Below are positions 35,216 through 43,529 of a stretch of DNA of 64,000 bases, in pieces (position 1 is the first letter of the stretch; every line of letters starts with the position of its first letter). The notes beneath the pieces are model-generated. The model searched no databases and was not told where the DNA came from. It saw nothing but the letters and a program-made list of their open reading frames with translations. The translations under genes were made by a program, and so were the position numbers. The DNA comes from Metallosphaera sedula DSM 5348 (lineage in GTDB: Archaea > Thermoproteota > Thermoprotei_A > Sulfolobales > Sulfolobaceae). Where the stretch lies: positions 1,315,789 through 1,379,788 of the forward strand of contig NC_009440.1 of assembly GCF_000016605.1 (NCBI RefSeq), written 5' to 3'.

Positions 35216-36832
35216 TTAGGCAGCGTATATCCCTTCCTCAGCCACGTATTTCTGTCTAGCTAGATCCATGAGCTTCCTAGTGAAGAAGAGGGAGTATATA
35301 ACCACAACAATGGCGAAAAGGATTGAAAGCCAACCCACTAGAGCAAGTTTGCCCTGACTATCTGCTAGTGCCAGCTCCCTCATTAGTCCCTGATGTACCT
35401 CGAGGGTTCTCCCGTCATATATATCTGGCCAGTACTCTCCTATGGCCAGGCCTCCCCATGCACTGTTCACCGTACTCGTTAACCCTGCCACTATGTATGG
35501 CATGGCTGAGGGGATTACCACCCTTCTCAACCTTTGCCAAAAGGTTAAGTTCAAGTTATCCATCACTTCCCAGTACTCCTTGGGCATGTTCTTTATCCCC
35601 ATCCAGTAACTATAAAAGACGTAATAGAAGGTGGAGATGAAGCCCAGCAGGAGGACGTAAAACTCGCTGGTGAAACCGCCTAAAACCGGTCTCAGGATTG
35701 GGTATGTTGCCCCGTATAGAAGAGGGAAATATGCTGGTGCCGGGAAGGAGGCCACGGTCTGAATCATTGGGATGACCACTCTCTCGGTTCTCTCGTGGAC
35801 AGAGAGCCAGTATCCCACAAAGATGGCGATCAACAAGGAAACGACAGATATTACCCCGACTCTCATGTAATCTATTCCTATTAGGACTAGGTCGTACGGA
35901 GTTGAAGAAATTAAGAAGCTCCAGGTTTGAGGAGATACGCTTCGTATCACTGTGAACACGGAGTATGATATTCCTAGGAGGAAGAGAGCCGCAATCACTA
36001 TCCCGATCTTTCCCCATTGGCGTACTTTCTCCTCCTCTTCATCTACATCTACAGGAACTGTTTTGCTCCTTGTTACATATCTAGCTAATTTGCTTACAGG
36101 GGCTATGGCATTGCTTACCTTCGCAGAATATCTAATCCTAAACCTCCCTCTCCTCAAGGCCTTGTTGGAGGATTCCGTATCAAGGCCATATCTTTGAACC
36201 GAGAAGGAGGCAAATTCCCTAAGGCCAAAGGTAATGAAAACTACAACCACCGCTAGAATTCCCAGGGCGTAAAGGGCCTGGTTGTAGAGTCCAAGCGTGG
36301 TTAGCCTAGAGATCAGGGACCCAATACCGAATACTGCGTAATTACTATTGCCTACACTGAAGACCTCACTCACGGTTATGTAGAACATTGCGTCCGCAAA
36401 ACTGGGGATCAGGTTAGCTGCAATCCTAGGAATCGAGAAGGGGATGTATAGTTTGGACATCTTGCCAAGAAACCCAAGCCTTAAGTTCTCAGCTACCTCG
36501 TTCAGGTTCTCAGGAACGGTCTTGAAGGCTTGATAAATTCCCATCCATATGTTCCAGACTACGGCAGTGAATACGAGGAATATTACAGCTAGTTGAGTAC
36601 CGAGAAACCCTCCTATATCCGAGACAAAGAAGATGAGTACAACGGGGAAGAAGGAGATAACGGGGACTGACTCCAGGACCTCTGACAGGGAAATATACAC
36701 GTTCTCGAAGGCCCTATTCTTTAAGGCCAGATAACCTAGGAGCCATCCAGTTACAATGGAGAGAATGATCGTGATAAATACTCTCCCCACCGTAACTCCA
36801 ACGGCGAGTAATGCTAGAAGCGGAAAAATCAA
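35216..36832 (-). CDS. ABC importer permease, two fused membrane domains (NitT/TauT type)
   Basis: 538 residues with two copies of the BPD_transp_1 permease fold: residues about 1-210 and 300-530, each with an EAA-type loop (LNEVAENLRLGFLGKMSKLYIPFSIPRIA and YWEVMDNLNLTFWQRLRRVVIPSAMPYI). Between them lies a charged linker. Fused permeases of the nitrate/sulfonate/taurine class are seen in Sulfolobales. No substrate-binding protein is adjacent, so the substrate is unknown. Its start overlaps the ATPase stop by four bases. Confidence 0.85.
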   Translation of the reverse strand: MIFPLLALLAVGVTVGRVFITIILSIVTGWLLGYLALKNRAFENVYISLSEVLESVPVISFFPVVLIFFVSDIGGFLGTQLAVIFLVFTAVVWNIWMGIYQAFKTVPENLNEVAENLRLGFLGKMSKLYIPFSIPRIAANLIPSFADAMFYITVSEVFSVGNSNYAVFGIGSLISRLTTLGLYNQALYALGILAVVVVFITFGLREFASFSVQRYGLDTESSNKALRRGRFRIRYSAKVSNAIAPVSKLARYVTRSKTVPVDVDEEEEKVRQWGKIGIVIAALFLLGISYSVFTVIRSVSPQTWSFLISSTPYDLVLIGIDYMRVGVISVVSLLIAIFVGYWLSVHERTERVVIPMIQTVASFPAPAYFPLLYGATYPILRPVLGGFTSEFYVLLLGFISTFYYVFYSYWMGIKNMPKEYWEVMDNLNLTFWQRLRRVVIPSAMPYIVAGLTSTVNSAWGGLAIGEYWPDIYDGRTLEVHQGLMRELALADSQGKLALVGWLSILFAIVVVIYSLFFTRKLMDLARQKYVAEEGIYAA

Positions 36833-37629
36833 CTCTCCTTCACCCTTTTCTTAACGGGGGTGAGAAGTTTATACAACGTGTCCAGATATTCCTGGAATCT
36901 CGGATCCTTAGGGTTTCTAGGCCTCTCCAGGTCTATGATCACCTCTCCCACGACTGTAGCTGGGCTTCCATTCAATACGTAAACCTTGTCTGATAGCTCC
37001 ACAACCTCATTCATGTTGTGGGAAACCATGACAGCGGTCTTGAGAGAGGTGTCCTCACTGAATATGGTGGAGTAAATCTCCTGCCTCAGACCTTCGGCAG
37101 TCAATTCGTCCAAATGAGCAAAGGGCTCATCCATGAGAAGAACATAGGGATCGGCTGCCAGGGCCCTAGCTATGGCTACCCTCTGCCTCATTCCTCCACT
37201 CATCTGCTTAGGGTAAAAGTCCTCAAATCCCTGAAGCCCAACGAGCTCAAGCATCTTTCTGGCTATCTTCTCTTCCTCCTCCTTCGGAAGTTTCCTGTAC
37301 TTCAGACCAAGCTTAACGTTTTCCAAAGCGGTTAACCAGGGGAAGGTTGCTATGGACTGGTGAATGAGGGCTATCCTGGGGGTAGGATGTAGAACCTTCT
37401 TTCCCATTAGCCTTACTTCCCCTTCGGAGGGTCTTATGAACCCACCTAGTATCCTAAGCAGAGTCGATTTTCCCACTCCAGACGGTCCAACTATGGCGGT
37501 AAGTTGATTCTCCTCCGTCCTAATAGAGACGTTCTCAAAGACCCTGTAATTGTTGGGATACTGAAATGCTAAATTGATTCCCTCTAGGATTGTTCCATCT
37601 GACCATCCCCGATCAACGTTAAATTCAAT
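36829..37629 (-). CDS. ABC importer ATPase (NitT/TauT type), probable ATT start codon
   Basis: About 266 residues when started at ATT 37629. Walker A GPSGVGKST, LSGG-type signature QMSGGMRQRVAIARAL, Walker B VLLMDEPFAHLD and the H-loop VSHNMNE are all intact. The frame is open and homologous to the family well upstream of Walker A, back to a TAG at 37645, yet contains no ATG, GTG or TTG before the GTG inside Walker A itself. A TATA-like aaaatatta (minus, about 37660-37668) predicts transcription start just before the ATT. So either ATT initiates or a start codon is lost. Energises the fused permease. Confidence 0.8.
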   Translation of the reverse strand: MEFNVDRGWSDGTILEGINLAFQYPNNYRVFENVSIRTEENQLTAIVGPSGVGKSTLLRILGGFIRPSEGEVRLMGKKVLHPTPRIALIHQSIATFPWLTALENVKLGLKYRKLPKEEEEKIARKMLELVGLQGFEDFYPKQMSGGMRQRVAIARALAADPYVLLMDEPFAHLDELTAEGLRQEIYSTIFSEDTSLKTAVMVSHNMNEVVELSDKVYVLNGSPATVVGEVIIDLERPRNPKDPRFQEYLDTLYKLLTPVKKRVKES

Positions 37630-37681: not shown

Positions 37682-39655
37682 TTATCCCGTGGTGTCACGT
37701 TCCAGATCTCGTATTATGTACTTATCCCCTCTCTTCCTTAGAACTCGCAACCTCACCATCTCTCTCAGAACATCCTCTCCAAACTTGGAGGATACCTCCC
37801 TGAGACTAAATTCCCTTTGCCGAAATTCCTGTATTGCCCTCCTAACATCAAAGGTTAGGGGGTCTTGGGAGTAGACGCTCCTGCATAGCACCTCGATCTG
37901 AACATTGGACCTTCTCAGTTCGTCCCTGAGCTCCCTGTAACCTACCTTCATGCACAGTTCCCTCAGATCCTTGACGTCCAGGGAGATCAAGCTCATCACG
38001 GCATCTCTAGGTAAACCTGATCTAGCCAGTTTCACGCCCTCCGAGGGCACTCCGTACTTGAGGCTGTCGTGAATTTCCAGAGCCTTGCGATACCTGTCAT
38101 CCCCTAGAGCCCTCAAAACACGAAACAGGGCAAAGGAAATCCATTTGGCATTGGAGATCACCTCCATGAGATCCTTCGACGTCAGTTTCTCGCAAATTCC
38201 ATCTAGACTATTTCCATTCATCCATCTGTTGAGAAGCTCCCTTCCCTCTTTGCATCCCCTCAAGGCCTGTGCAACCGCAGGGGAACCTGCTATCACGGAC
38301 ACTAGGTCGGCGTCCTTGTTATCTATGGGAAAGCCTGACAGGGCCTTTACATCAATGTAGCTCACTGCTACTGCCCTTCCCAAAGGCGTTACTGTAACTC
38401 CTCGGTCCGTCATGACCAGCTTCATATCCCTTAGTCTCGAGATCGAGGACTCGACGAGAGTGTACCCTACCCCCCTGAAGTTGAAGGTAGAGTTTATTGA
38501 TCTTCCAAGTTCATCCATTTCAACGCCGTCATTCCAGGACACAAAGGCCAAGGAAAGAGTGTCCAGATCCGGTTTCACTCCCTCACCCCTAGTACTCCCA
38601 CGGTAGTACCTCTCCTCTAGTTGGGTCGCAAACTTATCGGAGTTGGCTATGATGATAACCATTCCCTCCTTGTCATACCTGGGCCTCCCTGCCCTTCCAG
38701 CCATCTGCCTGAACTCGGATGGGGAAATGTCTTTCCAGCCCTTGAATTCTCCCCTCTCATCAACGTTTGGCAACTTTAGCTCGTAAAAGACGACGGCATA
38801 AACTGGGAGATTGACCCCCTGACCCAGAGCGGTGGTGGATACCACGACGTTGAGGTTTCCCTCCAATAACATGTCGAGAACCTTCTTTCTGTCCTCGTGA
38901 GGCATTCCGCTATGGTAGTGATGAGCCCTGAAGTCCCTCCTCTGAAGCTCCTGTGCCAGGGTTTCTGCAGACCTCCTGCTCTTCACGAAGACCAGAGCAT
39001 TCTTTCCCATGGAGACTATCCTCTGGAGAACTAACACCAACAACTCAAATCTGGGACGAGTGAGCCTGGACGGTTTCAGGTTCTCCTGCCAATTACCGCA
39101 CTTGAGAACGTAGGGATAGGCCACGCACTCGTGGAGGGGAACTACCCTCTTCTCGTGCGAAATTAGCTTTGCATTTAACCAAGTCACGTATCTCTCAGGG
39201 TCGCTAAGGGTCGCGCTCAGGGCAATCACGGGGACTCTCCTGGACTTGGCCCAGAGGACAAGGTTCTCAAGTGCCAGCCCCCTGTCGGTCTCGACGTTAT
39301 GAACCTCATCTATGACGATTCTCGAGACGTCGTTGAGCCAGGTGTAGTTATGGCGTATTGCACTGTCAAACTTTTCATAGGTAGCGAGGAGGACGTCTCC
39401 CTTCATCTTTCTTAGGTCGTCCTCATAAACGTCCGAGTCAGCCATCACGGCGTTGGTTCTGTCCCTAACTGAGAGATATACCTCCCTGGACAAGGCCTTC
39501 AAGGGAGAGACGTAAACAGATATTCCCTCGTCTTCGACTAGAACCCTCTTGGCAATGTGAGTCTTCCCACTACCGGTGGGCGCGGAAATCAGGTAATTGA
39601 TATCCCTGTTGCTCTCGTACTCCCTGAAGAACCTCTCGGCCAGTGGAAAGTCCAT
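37682..39655 (-). CDS. Second Ski2-like DEVH-box helicase
   Basis: 657 residues: Walker A APTGSGKT (about 25-32), DEVH box, SATLSDPERY, motif V LGQGVNLPVYAVV and motif VI QMAGRAGRPRYD as in Hel308, followed by a winged-helix-like and helical region but no recognisable helix-hairpin-helix. It is shorter and divergent from 31191-33293, so probably a separate crenarchaeal Hel308-related or RNA-acting Ski2 branch. It is followed upstream, after 53 bp, by the degenerate Opp/Dpp operon on the same strand. Confidence 0.85.
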   Translation of the reverse strand: MDFPLAERFFREYESNRDINYLISAPTGSGKTHIAKRVLVEDEGISVYVSPLKALSREVYLSVRDRTNAVMADSDVYEDDLRKMKGDVLLATYEKFDSAIRHNYTWLNDVSRIVIDEVHNVETDRGLALENLVLWAKSRRVPVIALSATLSDPERYVTWLNAKLISHEKRVVPLHECVAYPYVLKCGNWQENLKPSRLTRPRFELLVLVLQRIVSMGKNALVFVKSRRSAETLAQELQRRDFRAHHYHSGMPHEDRKKVLDMLLEGNLNVVVSTTALGQGVNLPVYAVVFYELKLPNVDERGEFKGWKDISPSEFRQMAGRAGRPRYDKEGMVIIIANSDKFATQLEERYYRGSTRGEGVKPDLDTLSLAFVSWNDGVEMDELGRSINSTFNFRGVGYTLVESSISRLRDMKLVMTDRGVTVTPLGRAVAVSYIDVKALSGFPIDNKDADLVSVIAGSPAVAQALRGCKEGRELLNRWMNGNSLDGICEKLTSKDLMEVISNAKWISFALFRVLRALGDDRYRKALEIHDSLKYGVPSEGVKLARSGLPRDAVMSLISLDVKDLRELCMKVGYRELRDELRRSNVQIEVLCRSVYSQDPLTFDVRRAIQEFRQREFSLREVSSKFGEDVLREMVRLRVLRKRGDKYIIRDLERDTTG

Positions 39656-39708: not shown

Positions 39709-40512
39709 CTAGTTTCTCTTAACGTAGTCCCAACACTTCACCTGCGCGTCTTCTACCTGGACCATGGGAGGCTTCTGTAATCTGCATAGCCTCTGCAATT
39801 CCTTTTTCCTTCTCATTACCTCACAGTAATCGTGGAATCTGCACCCGCTGAGGCTCCCTCGTCCAACTTCACTCACCCCAACCTTTTCGCCCCTTTTACC
39901 AAGGCGTATTGCGGAGTTTGCTAGGACCATTGAGTAGGGATGAATTAGACGAGCCCCCGTCTCAACTACTTCATCCTCATACATCACTGTGACGGAGGTG
40001 CAAGGTGATATCAGGTCCACCGAACTTACGAAGAACAATGAGTCTAGTCTTCTGGACCTGATGATCTTGGCTAGGAGCCTCTCCACCTTGAGCCTCCCTT
40101 GCTCCTCAACTTCCTGGAAGAAGTCCTCAACTATTACGAATCTTGTCTTCTCCATGAAGAGAGGAGCAAGGTAAACCTTAACCAGGTTCAGGTCGCTCAG
40201 GTTATCCAGAAAATCGTCCGAAATTCCTAGGAGGAACATGATCTCCTGTGCTCTCTTGCTCGTCTTCAGCCATGCAGAAAGTAGATCCTTTACCCTTACC
40301 CTTCCCCTTTCGAGGTGACTGGGGATGAGATAGGTGGATCTCAATCCGTCCTTCTTTGACATGTACTCGCCGGTGAACGGGTCGATGTACTGGGCTTCAA
40401 TGTCGCCCCTTTTCAGGACTTGGGAGAATCCTCTCTTGTAATCGTCCCATTCTCCCAGAATACAGGTAATATCTCTTATCACGGGTATTGGGCCATCCTT
40501 CAGGACTATCAT
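39709..40512 (-). CDS. Degenerate OppF/DppF-like ABC subunit (pseudo-ATPase)
   Basis: 267 residues that can be laid on an oligopeptide ABC ATPase although the catalytic motifs are gone. The Walker A place reads CILGEWDDYKRGF (17-29), the signature place LSDLN (105-109), Walker B FVIVED (125-130) lacks the DE pair, and the H-loop is VSSVD. The family's C-terminal part survives: HPYS (191-194) and cysteines C224, C230, C243, C260 in the GCRF...CEV...C...CWDY pattern that in DppD/F-type proteins can hold an Fe-S cluster. It ends a four-gene operon and probably serves a structural or regulatory role. Confidence 0.7.
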   Translation of the reverse strand: MIVLKDGPIPVIRDITCILGEWDDYKRGFSQVLKRGDIEAQYIDPFTGEYMSKKDGLRSTYLIPSHLERGRVRVKDLLSAWLKTSKRAQEIMFLLGISDDFLDNLSDLNLVKVYLAPLFMEKTRFVIVEDFFQEVEEQGRLKVERLLAKIIRSRRLDSLFFVSSVDLISPCTSVTVMYEDEVVETGARLIHPYSMVLANSAIRLGKRGEKVGVSEVGRGSLSGCRFHDYCEVMRRKKELQRLCRLQKPPMVQVEDAQVKCWDYVKRN

Positions 40513-40536
40513 TATGCCACCTCGATGTCGTGAAGG

Positions 40537-41391
40537 TCATATCCCACAGGCATAGGCAATGCACCTTACCCTATGATTCCCCATGGAGACCCAGTTCACG
40601 TTTTCGAAGCACTTGGGAGTGGAGTGCTTACATATTCCCGAGTAGACGCAACCCTTCCCCTCTACTTTCTCCTCCTGGATCTCCCCGTTAATTAGATCTA
40701 TAGTGTAAGGATGTAAGGGAGACTGAAGGACGTCTTGACCCTCCTCAACGGTCTCGCCACGGTACAGCACAAGGACATAGTCGGCCAACCTGGAGAGAAT
40801 CCCAGGATTATTTTCGAGAAACATGAAAGAGCTCCTGACCGAACCCATGAGATCTATTATTGAGTTCATGACCGAGGCACGTCCTATATCTCCCAATCCA
40901 AACTCTAGGTCATCGAAAATTACGTATTCTGGTTCCAGAAACACGGCGAGCGCTATGGCTACCTTCTTCAGTTGAAGTGGGGTTAGTTGATATGGTAATC
41001 TCTCCATTACGTCAGCGCTGAGCCCCAGAAGCTTCAGATACTCAAGCCCTACTTCGACGCCGTACTCCGCATTTCCGATTTCATGTGAGACCACAATCTC
41101 AGCGAAGTGGGATCCGATCGTGTATAGCGGATTAAACATTGTTGAAGGATCATAAAATACTGCAGATATCTTCTCCCATCTAACCTTATGTAGAAGGTCC
41201 CTGGACTTTACCAAGTCTACGCCATCAAGGAGAATAGAACCAGATACGTTGTTCAGAAGTCCCAAGGTTGCAGGAATTATTGCCTCTTTTCCGCTATCCT
41301 TTTCGCCCAGAATTCCCACGGACTTCTTGTCCAATCTTACGCTAAAACAGTTAAGTGACCCCTTCACTGTGACACAGTTATACTCGAGCAC
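40537..41391 (-). CDS. Degenerate OppD/DppD-like ABC subunit (pseudo-ATPase)
   Basis: 284 residues, recognisable as OppD/DppD-like but catalytically altered: the P-loop is G29-EKDS-G34-K35-E36, with Glu in place of the phosphate-binding Ser/Thr; the Q-loop has Tyr80 (FYDPSTMFNPLYTIG); the signature is LTPLQ (136-140) in place of LSGGQ; Walker B ends D160-D161 instead of DE; the D-loop is GLGD; the H-loop has FLENN. The C-terminal HPYT and cysteines C248, C254, C261, C277 remain. It directly follows the DppC-like permease. It may bind nucleotide weakly at most. Confidence 0.72.
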   Translation of the reverse strand: MLEYNCVTVKGSLNCFSVRLDKKSVGILGEKDSGKEAIIPATLGLLNNVSGSILLDGVDLVKSRDLLHKVRWEKISAVFYDPSTMFNPLYTIGSHFAEIVVSHEIGNAEYGVEVGLEYLKLLGLSADVMERLPYQLTPLQLKKVAIALAVFLEPEYVIFDDLEFGLGDIGRASVMNSIIDLMGSVRSSFMFLENNPGILSRLADYVLVLYRGETVEEGQDVLQSPLHPYTIDLINGEIQEEKVEGKGCVYSGICKHSTPKCFENVNWVSMGNHRVRCIAYACGI

Positions 41392-42141
41392 CTATCTCAC
41401 CACCGTATCGGAGACCAGGAAGATTAAGACGAGAAGAATTGCCCTGAAACCAGCTGGGGGCAGAAACAGCCACCAGAAGTCAAATAGACGAGAGCTATTA
41501 AGAAGGGTCGTCAGGGTCGGGAAGTTGGGATCTCCTACCCCAGCTATTACGCCTAGCGCCGTGTAAACTGCTATCCCGTCAACCACGGAGGGCAAGAAGA
41601 AGCGCTTGGATAAGGCTTTAGCTATTTCCGAGGAACTTCTTACCCTTTGGGTGAGAGATATCTCGGGGATCCTGGACAGTGGATTCCCCTTACATACTGC
41701 CTCCGAAACCTGTCTTGAGATCACAGACCATCCAGTTAAACCCACAACTAGGGCAGTGAGGAAGAAGTTGGCCTTAACGAAGGTGACCTCTGGCGTCGCA
41801 AATAGGATGATAATGGCCATGAGGATAGGGACCCTCGGAAGTGAGGTTATGCCGTCAGAAATCCTCATCATTATGGACCTCACAGTACCGCAAGAACTCC
41901 CAGCTAACATACCGTATGAAACACCTAGGCCTACCTCTATGAGTGAGACCATTATCCCGAAAAGGAGGGTGTCCACAACTGCCCTAGCGTTTACGTTAAT
42001 CATGTTGGCACCATTCACGTAGGTTCCCAAGGGATACTCATGAGAGGGAGGGAGAAGTGGCGAACCTCCAGGTAGCTGAAGGAAGGTGAAGAGCAGAGCC
42101 CACCCAAAATAGGCGAGAAACGCAATCAAGGCCCATTTCAT
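41392..42141 (-). CDS. DppC-like ABC permease of the degenerate operon
   Basis: 249 residues, five to six membrane segments. The N-terminal PPSHEYPLGTYVNGANMINV corresponds to the HPLGTDxxGRD motif of DppC/OppC, and GLGVSYGMLAGSSCG to the following helix. The EAA loop is poorly conserved (SRIPEISLTQRVRSSSEIAKAL region). It overlaps the upstream permease by four bases and abuts the first degenerate ATPase-like gene, confirming one operon. Confidence 0.72.
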   Translation of the reverse strand: MKWALIAFLAYFGWALLFTFLQLPGGSPLLPPSHEYPLGTYVNGANMINVNARAVVDTLLFGIMVSLIEVGLGVSYGMLAGSSCGTVRSIMMRISDGITSLPRVPILMAIIILFATPEVTFVKANFFLTALVVGLTGWSVISRQVSEAVCKGNPLSRIPEISLTQRVRSSSEIAKALSKRFFLPSVVDGIAVYTALGVIAGVGDPNFPTLTTLLNSSRLFDFWWLFLPPAGFRAILLVLIFLVSDTVVR

Positions 42142-43358
42142 CTTCTCACCCTTGGATCAACGTAACCGTAGAAGATGTCTCCCACAAGCCCTGAGAGGAG
42201 GACAATCGTGGAGTAGAATATCAGGACCCCCTCAACCACCTTAAAGTCTCCATAAACTGCCCCCTCCCTCAGAAGGAATCCCAAGCCTGGCCAATAAAAT
42301 ATTGACTCCACCAGGAACTCCGCGACCAACATATCTACGAAGGCTGCTGAAATAGTGGACAGCGCCACTACGGAAGCGCTTCCCAACATGTGTCTGTAGA
42401 CTAATACTGCCCTTGAAAGCCCCTTAGCCTTGAAAGCGTCATTAACTCCATAGGGTAGAATTAGCCTGTTGGCGTAGGTTCCAATGAAGGGAAAGAAGAG
42501 CGCGACTACTGGGAAAACTATGTTGACGCCGCTCTCGACTTTTAGGTGAAAGGCGTAAATTAGAGACAACGCAATAACCCAGGAAGCCAATGCATTCCCT
42601 ATGTATTTCCACCTCCTCACAATCTTGGTTAGCAGACCTTCCTGCGCAACGCTCCTCACAGCCATGAAGGAGCCAAGGTAAATGGACAGCGAGAAGGATA
42701 TCCCGGACAGTAGGCTGGTGTAGGGTAGTGCAGACATCAGCAGAGAGTCCACGTCAAGACCGTAATGCTGGCTCAATCCAAAATTAAAGGTTAAAAGTTC
42801 AAGGATAACCCTGAATAGGTTCTCCCCATGAAGCATCTCTAGAATAGCCGTAATGACTGAAATGATAAGGATTGAAACAAGGAATGACAGAAACCTCTTT
42901 ATCACGTACCCGGAGAGCGATCCAGTCCCCCTGGAACTGGCTAAATCTCCTATGGCCCTTTCCTGAACCAGGAGAACTGTCCCCCTGAATCCCATTGCAG
43001 AACCCACAAATACCAGGAGAATTCCTGGCAAAGATAGGGGGGCCAGTTCCTCAACGTAACCGTGAATTACGTAAACATAAAACGAGGTAGAGTTGAGGGA
43101 CACATTTTCCACTTGCCTTAGAATCAACGTCTTACTCCCATTCAGTATCACAGTAGCTACGGGAGGCCCCTTATTCATTACAGACCAGTATTGGCTCTGC
43201 CAGTCACTTGGTGGCACTGCACAGTTACCCTGTCCATAGGACACCAGAGAGATGTACTGACTTTCTGTGGCCAAGAAGGAGAGATATATCCCAGCTACGA
43301 TTAATATCAATGATATTATTACTAGTGCTCTCGCTCTCATTTTGGAATGGTAGGCCAA
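42138..43358 (-). CDS. DppB-like ABC permease with extra N-terminal extracytoplasmic domain
   Basis: 406 residues. From about residue 150 it follows DppB/OppB (GYVIKRFLSFLVSILI, the EAA region NDAFKAKGLSRAVLVYRHMLGSA, YWPGLG and the closing GYVDPRVRR). The first about 125 residues are extra: a membrane segment (11-30), an exposed 31-107 part with glycosylation sequons, and a second segment (108-125). The extra part might take the place of a binding protein, as none is encoded nearby. First gene of the operon; a TATA-like ttttaaataaa lies about 25 bp upstream. Confidence 0.75.
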   Translation of the reverse strand: MAYHSKMRARALVIISLILIVAGIYLSFLATESQYISLVSYGQGNCAVPPSDWQSQYWSVMNKGPPVATVILNGSKTLILRQVENVSLNSTSFYVYVIHGYVEELAPLSLPGILLVFVGSAMGFRGTVLLVQERAIGDLASSRGTGSLSGYVIKRFLSFLVSILIISVITAILEMLHGENLFRVILELLTFNFGLSQHYGLDVDSLLMSALPYTSLLSGISFSLSIYLGSFMAVRSVAQEGLLTKIVRRWKYIGNALASWVIALSLIYAFHLKVESGVNIVFPVVALFFPFIGTYANRLILPYGVNDAFKAKGLSRAVLVYRHMLGSASVVALSTISAAFVDMLVAEFLVESIFYWPGLGFLLREGAVYGDFKVVEGVLIFYSTIVLLSGLVGDIFYGYVDPRVRR

Positions 43359-43395
43359 TCAACTTAAAAGACTTTCTCTTTATTTAAAATTTTCT

Positions 43396-43406
43396 AAAAA
43401 AAAAAA
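43396..43406. repeat. A11 homopolymer in the divergent spacer
   Basis: Eleven consecutive A between the Opp/Dpp-like operon start and the vWA gene. It lies just upstream of the operon's likely TATA box (about 43380-43391) and may stiffen or open promoter DNA, or vary in length. Confidence 0.6.
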
Positions 43407-43529
43407 CTACTTTTTGATTTGACTGATATGTAGAGTTGGTTGAGAACTTGAGAGGGATAGACTTCATCTTATTGCAAGAATTGGAAATAATATGGCAAAG
43501 TTTAAACGTCGCGATAACTATTTTGTTCC

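Follow-up and report, generated by a model that had tools for sequence, protein, structure and literature searches.

What can an importer of the Opp/Dpp type do once both of its ATPase sites are gone? The question is raised by a block of four coupled minus-strand genes at positions 39709 to 43358 of the window (the whole 64,000-nucleotide stretch of the Metallosphaera sedula DSM 5348 genome analysed here). These genes encode homologues of DppB, DppC, DppD and DppF, referred to below as B, C, D and F. An earlier reading of the DNA made without database searches (the sequence-only reading) had proposed this arrangement, and the open reading frames (ORFs) are found where it placed them. Comparison of the copies from the 17 of 31 Sulfolobaceae genomes that carry the set indicates that the operon very probably encodes a conserved complex that is not an ATP-driven importer dependent on a substrate-binding protein (SBP). 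The favoured reading, to which we assign a probability of about 0.55, is an ATP-free complex derived from DppBCDF that may serve as a receptor for an external ligand or partner.

Loss of both ATPase sites in a conserved operon

D (positions 40537 to 41391, minus strand; 284 residues) starts with a GTG directly after the stop codon of C. Its P-loop reads GEKDSGKE (residues 29 to 36 in the numbering of the final D alignment; positions 41284 to 41307, minus strand): the fourth Gly and the Ser/Thr are lost, the Lys is kept, and the last position is Glu36. The Q-loop Gln is replaced by Tyr80 and the LSGGQ signature by LTPLQ. In the Walker B/catalytic pair D160-D161 (40909 to 40914, minus strand) the catalytic Glu is an Asp, and the H-loop His is replaced by Asn194 (40810 to 40812, minus strand). 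Among the 17 copies, K35 and D161 are invariant, E36 and S33 are each found in 16, and Asn194 is found in 16 with a single Ser. D thus keeps a constrained dead pocket, and its P-loop, as far as the alignment can tell, is dead yet constrained.

F (positions 39709 to 40512, minus strand; 267 residues) begins 24 nucleotides after D and is preceded by GAGGTGG. Its P-loop is reduced to a vestigial site, CILGEWDDYKRGF (residues 17 to 29; positions 40426 to 40464, minus strand), where no GK[ST] is conserved among the 17 copies. The signature reads LSDLN, ED stands in place of DE, and the H-loop His is lost. The dead motifs are found in all 17 D and all 17 F proteins, so that neither nucleotide-binding domain (NBD) protein has the Walker A, Walker B, LSGGQ, Q-loop and H-loop residues of a working ATPase. 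D and F were aligned with their counterparts from the three canonical dpp operons of M. sedula, whose motifs are intact; the losses are therefore a property neither of this genome nor of the reading, and their recurrence in all 17 orthologous copies excludes chance. The same alignment bears out every change that the sequence-only reading had listed, namely, Glu36, LTPLQ, DD and the altered Q- and H-loops in D, and the missing P-loop, LSDLN and the lost His in F.

In ABC (ATP-binding cassette) proteins, each ATP site combines the Walker A motif from one subunit with the signature from its partner, so both sites are lost here. The complex might still be energised by ATP if D bound nucleotides in a non-canonical way, or if NBDs were borrowed from an intact Dpp system or from the ABC pair encoded at positions 35216 to 37476. 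The Walker A Lys and the Asp at the catalytic position, both invariant, and the conserved dead P-loop would be consistent with such an activity, and intact ATPases do exist in the M. sedula genome. However, the Walker A Ser/Thr, the signature and the Q- and H-loop residues are absent from both composite sites; the P-loop is missing from F and, in one genome (G002), from D as well. Every copy keeps its own D and F, which would be needless if NBDs were borrowed, and the complex also lacks a docking scoop, an SBP gene and intact coupling loops (see below). Taken together, these observations make ATP-driven function very improbable.

The B-C-D-F set is found in five of the 11 Sulfolobaceae genera: in six genomes of genus g1 (M. 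sedula included), in G018 and G009 of g5, in four genomes of g4, two of g10 and three of g3. The sequence-only reading had left it to a search of Sulfolobales genomes whether the gene order and the altered motifs are conserved, and in these 17 genomes both are. A profile of C scores 245 to 410 bits in the 17 carriers and at most 75 bits against anything else in the 229 genomes of the class. No orthologue with intact Walker A, Walker B and LSGGQ motifs is found among the Sulfolobaceae and class genomes searched. When canonical DppD and DppF are included in a tree, the pseudo-D proteins and the pseudo-F proteins each form one monophyletic group, with long branches that make the position of the most diverged sequences unsure. 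The B-C-D-F order is kept among the copies; in G001, F (L072:10253-11050) is inverted relative to B-C-D and therefore requires a promoter of its own. The most diverged copy (G002, L087:7808-11400), with 25% identity in D and 20% in F, adjoins a glycosyltransferase gene, and it is here that the D P-loop is entirely lost.

Motif loss in a duplicated transporter family could also mark an operon in decay. However, the frames are open in all 17 genomes at D identities of 25 to 91%, with no frameshift in any copy, the cysteines discussed below are invariant, and the copies share a common origin. The ratio of nonsynonymous to synonymous substitution rates (dN/dS) is 0.03 to 0.28 in all four genes for the usable pairs, with dS approaching saturation where it is near 2, with the top value coming from few changes, and with a dN of 0 in D in one pair. 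In the closest pair that includes the window it is 0.03 to 0.08, similar to that of ordinary neighbouring genes. The data thus effectively refute decay, against which the open, coupled frames had already been held to speak: judged by its sequences, the operon is conserved under strong selection.

Remodelled permeases and retained Fe-S cysteines

B (positions 42138 to 43358, minus strand) has 406 residues when counted from the TTG at 43358; the ATG at 43340, which gives 400 residues, is the likelier start, since the starts of the orthologues align there. It matches the Pfam permease family PF00528 (E value, 3e-18) and, in a profile search of PDB, OppB (2e-23, over profile positions 174 to 408); the top Foldseek match of its predicted structure is OppB (8z21_A). 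C (positions 41392 to 42141, minus strand; 249 residues) overlaps B by 4 nucleotides. It has no Pfam match; its homology to DppC is seen in a match to the NCBIfam family Opp4C (2e-12) and in the alignment with canonical DppC.

In B, the stretch between the first and second transmembrane (TM) helices of the permease (residues 155 to 194; positions 42777 to 42896, minus strand) has lost the SBP-docking scoop in 17 of 17 copies. It comprises 39 residues (40 in G002), compared with 70 to 78 in 10 canonical archaeal DppB proteins, a loss of about 31 residues that leaves B without the scoop typical of Opp/Dpp permeases. In Escherichia coli, residues 32 to 62 of DppB form the scoop, which reaches into DppA; when it is deleted, uptake is impaired (PMC12136057). 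The EAA coupling loop of B (residues 293 to 313; positions 42420 to 42482, minus strand) is shortened to 19 to 25 residues in the 17 copies, as against 26 in 10 of 10 canonical DppB proteins, with a KG or RG kept in 16 of 17. In C, the EAA-type coupling motif is replaced, and the alignment shows that the 12 residues after it are gone. Intact coupling helices of the Opp/Dpp EAA type are thus found in neither permease.

No binding-protein gene is found among the annotated genes that adjoin the copies, in line with the sequence-only reading, which saw none with the operon; the distal neighbours are not all annotated, and an SBP encoded elsewhere is possible. Among the canonical operons used for comparison, most are directly adjoined by a large unmatched ORF that could, to judge by its size, encode a binding protein. 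The P-type ATPase, M32 peptidase and glycosyltransferase genes found upstream of some copies were checked as candidates and are not binding proteins.

B has also gained about 145 residues at its N terminus, comprising a TM helix (residues 2 to 31), a β-domain (residues 34 to 102; positions 43053 to 43259, minus strand) and a second TM helix (residues 106 to 140). The β-domain, of about 70 residues, is predicted by AlphaFold2 with a per-residue confidence (pLDDT) of about 87 to 93, and the topology of the permease that follows would place it on the outer side of the membrane. It is absent from the 10 canonical DppB proteins and has no solid match in Pfam or PDB. Full-length matches to the N-terminal module occur in B of all 17 carriers and nowhere else in the class (229 genomes); the search was extended to 398 genomes of the phylum. 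A weak match to the ectodomain in G495, a further genome of the phylum, of 23 bits over 45 residues, was judged to be due to chance. In C, 33 of the 58 invariant residues fall in 64 residues of hand-picked segments taken to face outward (p, 4e-9), which, together with the gained ectodomain, suggests that the outside face is the working surface.

This conservation could also be that of an ATP-independent transporter or channel, in which B and C would move a solute passively or by using the large proton gradient that an acidophile maintains; the ectodomain would be a gate or filter, and D and F a fixed cytoplasmic plug or support. B still has a DppB-type permease fold, and its core and the outer loops of C are the best conserved parts of the complex; the mean top-residue frequency is 0.75 to 0.78 at residues 321 to 360 of the B core, compared with 0.48 to 0.67 in the ectodomain. 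On the other hand, a pore that no ATP-driven gate closes would be at risk of leaking protons at pH 2, the coupling region of C is replaced and shortened, and no conserved intramembrane charged residue for proton coupling was identified, although no systematic search for one was made. Such a transporter or channel is unlikely, though to be taken seriously.

The NBD proteins, too, match their canonical counterparts. D matches PF00005 (2e-8) and, in profile searches, the structures of OppD and DppD (3e-54). For F, the closest match by sequence in PDB is DppD of Thermoanaerobacter tengcongensis (4fwi_B; E value, 1e-17). Its AlphaFold2 model, predicted like the others as a single chain, shows a complete NBD fold (pLDDT, 89.5; predicted TM-score, 0.87), with E. 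coli DppF (8z1y_D) as the top Foldseek match (E value, 1.6e-12; TM-score, 0.74). The Pfam domain oligo_HPY scores below the cut-off in both proteins, though the HPY motif and the four cysteines described in the sequence-only reading are present. HPY is kept in D and F across the 17 copies except for a single Tyr-to-Phe change in D, and the Fe-S cysteines of D (C248, C254, C261 and C277; positions 40561 to 40650, minus strand) and F (C224, C230, C243 and C260; positions 39733 to 39843, minus strand) are invariant, all eight in 17 of 17. The operon thus has two features of Opp/Dpp systems, a pair of permeases homologous to DppB and DppC and a pair of NBD proteins of the oligo_HPY Fe-S type.

In E. 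coli DppBCDF, mutating or oxidising either cluster disassembles the complex, which the clusters hold together (PMC12136057). On this precedent, retention of the cysteines argues that assembly still matters, and D and F would carry [4Fe-4S] clusters needed for it. Two more cysteines of D, C6 and C15 (window positions 41347 to 41376), are conserved in 16 of 17 copies near the lost A-loop; they may face each other across the first β-hairpin and could form a disulfide or a metal site.

Gene neighbourhood and control region

The genes around the operon vary, and none is common to all copies. A Hel308-like helicase gene and an ABC pair are found next to it in Metallosphaera and Aramenus, an M32 carboxypeptidase gene upstream of B in g4, an Lrp-type regulator gene upstream in g10, a major facilitator superfamily gene nearby in g4 and g10, and a P-type ATPase gene upstream in Aramenus. 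In the window, the helicase gene (37682 to 39655, minus strand) lies 54 nucleotides downstream of F; it adjoins the block in these two genera and is absent beside it elsewhere. The M32 carboxypeptidase gene of g4 (L075:5959-7431) is directly upstream of B and overlaps it by 4 nucleotides in G017. The ABC pair near the dead operon (35216 to 37476, minus strand) consists of an intact permease and ATPase. As listed, the ATPase ORF encodes 215 residues and begins within the P-loop, and its frame runs upstream through GPSGVGKST; to judge from this frame, the true start is upstream of the listed ORF and is not a listable ATG, GTG or TTG.

These neighbours bear on another possibility, that the complex is a scaffold or assembly factor whose ectodomain serves as a chaperone or docking site while another envelope or respiratory protein is held in place or matured. 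An outward-facing domain unique to the family would suit this role, and pseudo-enzymes frequently turn into scaffolds. However, no neighbouring gene is consistent among the genera, and the distribution of the operon matches neither of two lithotrophy markers that were tried: DoxD is found in 30 of 31 genomes, and 9 of the 17 carriers and 4 of the 14 other genomes have NiFe hydrogenase. A scaffold is thus distinctly unlikely.

The intergenic region at 43359 to 43529 is shared by the operon and a divergent gene for an ArnB-like von Willebrand factor A (VWA) protein with an ArnB_C domain. A TATA-like element, TTTTAAATA (43381 to 43389, minus strand), was picked out from the sequence about 45 nucleotides before the ATG at 43340 and is only partially conserved within the genus. 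The region holds a published chromatin immunoprecipitation (ChIP) peak of AbfR1, among the top 20 in M. sedula (3.8-fold). The same study places msed_1382, a binding-protein-dependent transport membrane component, side by side with msed_1383, a von Willebrand factor A gene, and gives STK_16490 as the S. tokodaii counterpart of msed_1382 (PMC12529230). B and the divergent VWA gene match this pair; by extrapolation, F, D and C would be Msed_1379 to Msed_1381 and the operon Msed_1379 to Msed_1382. AbfR1 is described there as a nucleoid-organising protein with a preference for AT-rich intergenic DNA (PMC12529230), so the peak tells little about the function of the operon.

Possible function and comparison with known systems

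The SBP gene, the scoop, the coupling loops and the ATP sites have been lost or altered as a group, whereas what assembly requires is kept, and the complex is therefore read as an assembled, ATP-free derivative of DppBCDF. D and F would be pseudo-ATPases whose NBD folds, with their [4Fe-4S] C-terminal domains, form a cytoplasmic platform that holds B and C. The outer-face domain built into B would have taken the place of the carrier protein and of the docking scoop, and an external ligand or partner would bind this ectodomain together with the outer loops of C, which are strongly conserved. The resulting conformation of B and C could then be passed on to the D/F pair, the assembly of which may be tied to cluster redox state. 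Redox control of this kind is possible, by analogy with the E. coli complex. A receptor or sensor as the specific function falls somewhat short of even odds. A little more tentative still is the full scheme of an importer architecture turned into a transmembrane receptor, with the built-in ectodomain in place of the carrier protein, an Fe-S-stapled pseudo-NBD pair in place of the ATPases, and the cluster state gating assembly or output.

Several observations weigh against a receptor. The enrichment in C is no more than suggestive, since canonical DppC is conserved in the same outer loops, and conservation in the TM core of B equals or exceeds that in the ectodomain, which a translocation pathway would explain too. 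No downstream signalling partner is seen among the neighbouring genes, which vary by genus, and no ligand is known. The sequence-only reading had inferred a membrane complex that has ceased to work as an importer driven by ATP but may act as a sensor, redox carrier or passive channel. Its first part is borne out and further strengthened by the scoop deletion, the altered coupling loops and the new outward-facing domain of B, all of which are additional to it; its second part stays a proposal. Of the three roles, redox carrier is the weakest, because the same clusters in E. coli DppBCDF hold the complex together (PMC12136057).

This operon separates the structural role of the Fe-S domains of NBD proteins from ATP hydrolysis and offers a natural test of what the DppBCDF subunits can do without ATP. 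Both msed_1382 and STK_16490 are listed simply as binding-protein-dependent or peptide ABC permeases (PMC12529230). The peptide-transporter labels in databases are probably wrong, and uptake predictions made from such a peptide-permease annotation would be wrong as well.

There are known ABC proteins in which one site is dead or which bind ATP but do not pump. A literature search for ABC complexes dead at both sites returned partial cases only, and a conserved importer-type complex without a recognisable intact nucleotide site, with the scoop deleted and an ectodomain gained, is not described in the literature searched. Searches with the locus tags returned only a paper on carbon fixation that deals with Msed_1375 and the ChIP table for AbfR1. 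Compared with DppBCDF and OppBCDF (E. coli 8z1v and 8z21; Mycobacterium tuberculosis 8wd9 and 8j5q), the operon shares the B-C-D-F order, the subunit folds, the permease core and the HPY motif with four cysteines in both NBD proteins, but has no usable ATP site, no SBP gene alongside and no scoop, its coupling loops are altered, and B carries an ectodomain and two additional TM helices. The NBD of T. tengcongensis DppD (4fwi), the best match of F by sequence in PDB, likewise has an Fe-S domain, but its P-loop is intact. The one-site-degenerate exporters TAP, TmrAB and ABCB11 also have an NBD pair with lost catalytic residues that is under selection, but they retain at least one hydrolysing site, whereas here both are lost, and in a complex of the importer type. 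SUR1/2 and CFTR, in which the ABC architecture serves regulation or gating, still bind ATP, whereas D and F have no recognisable intact nucleotide site.

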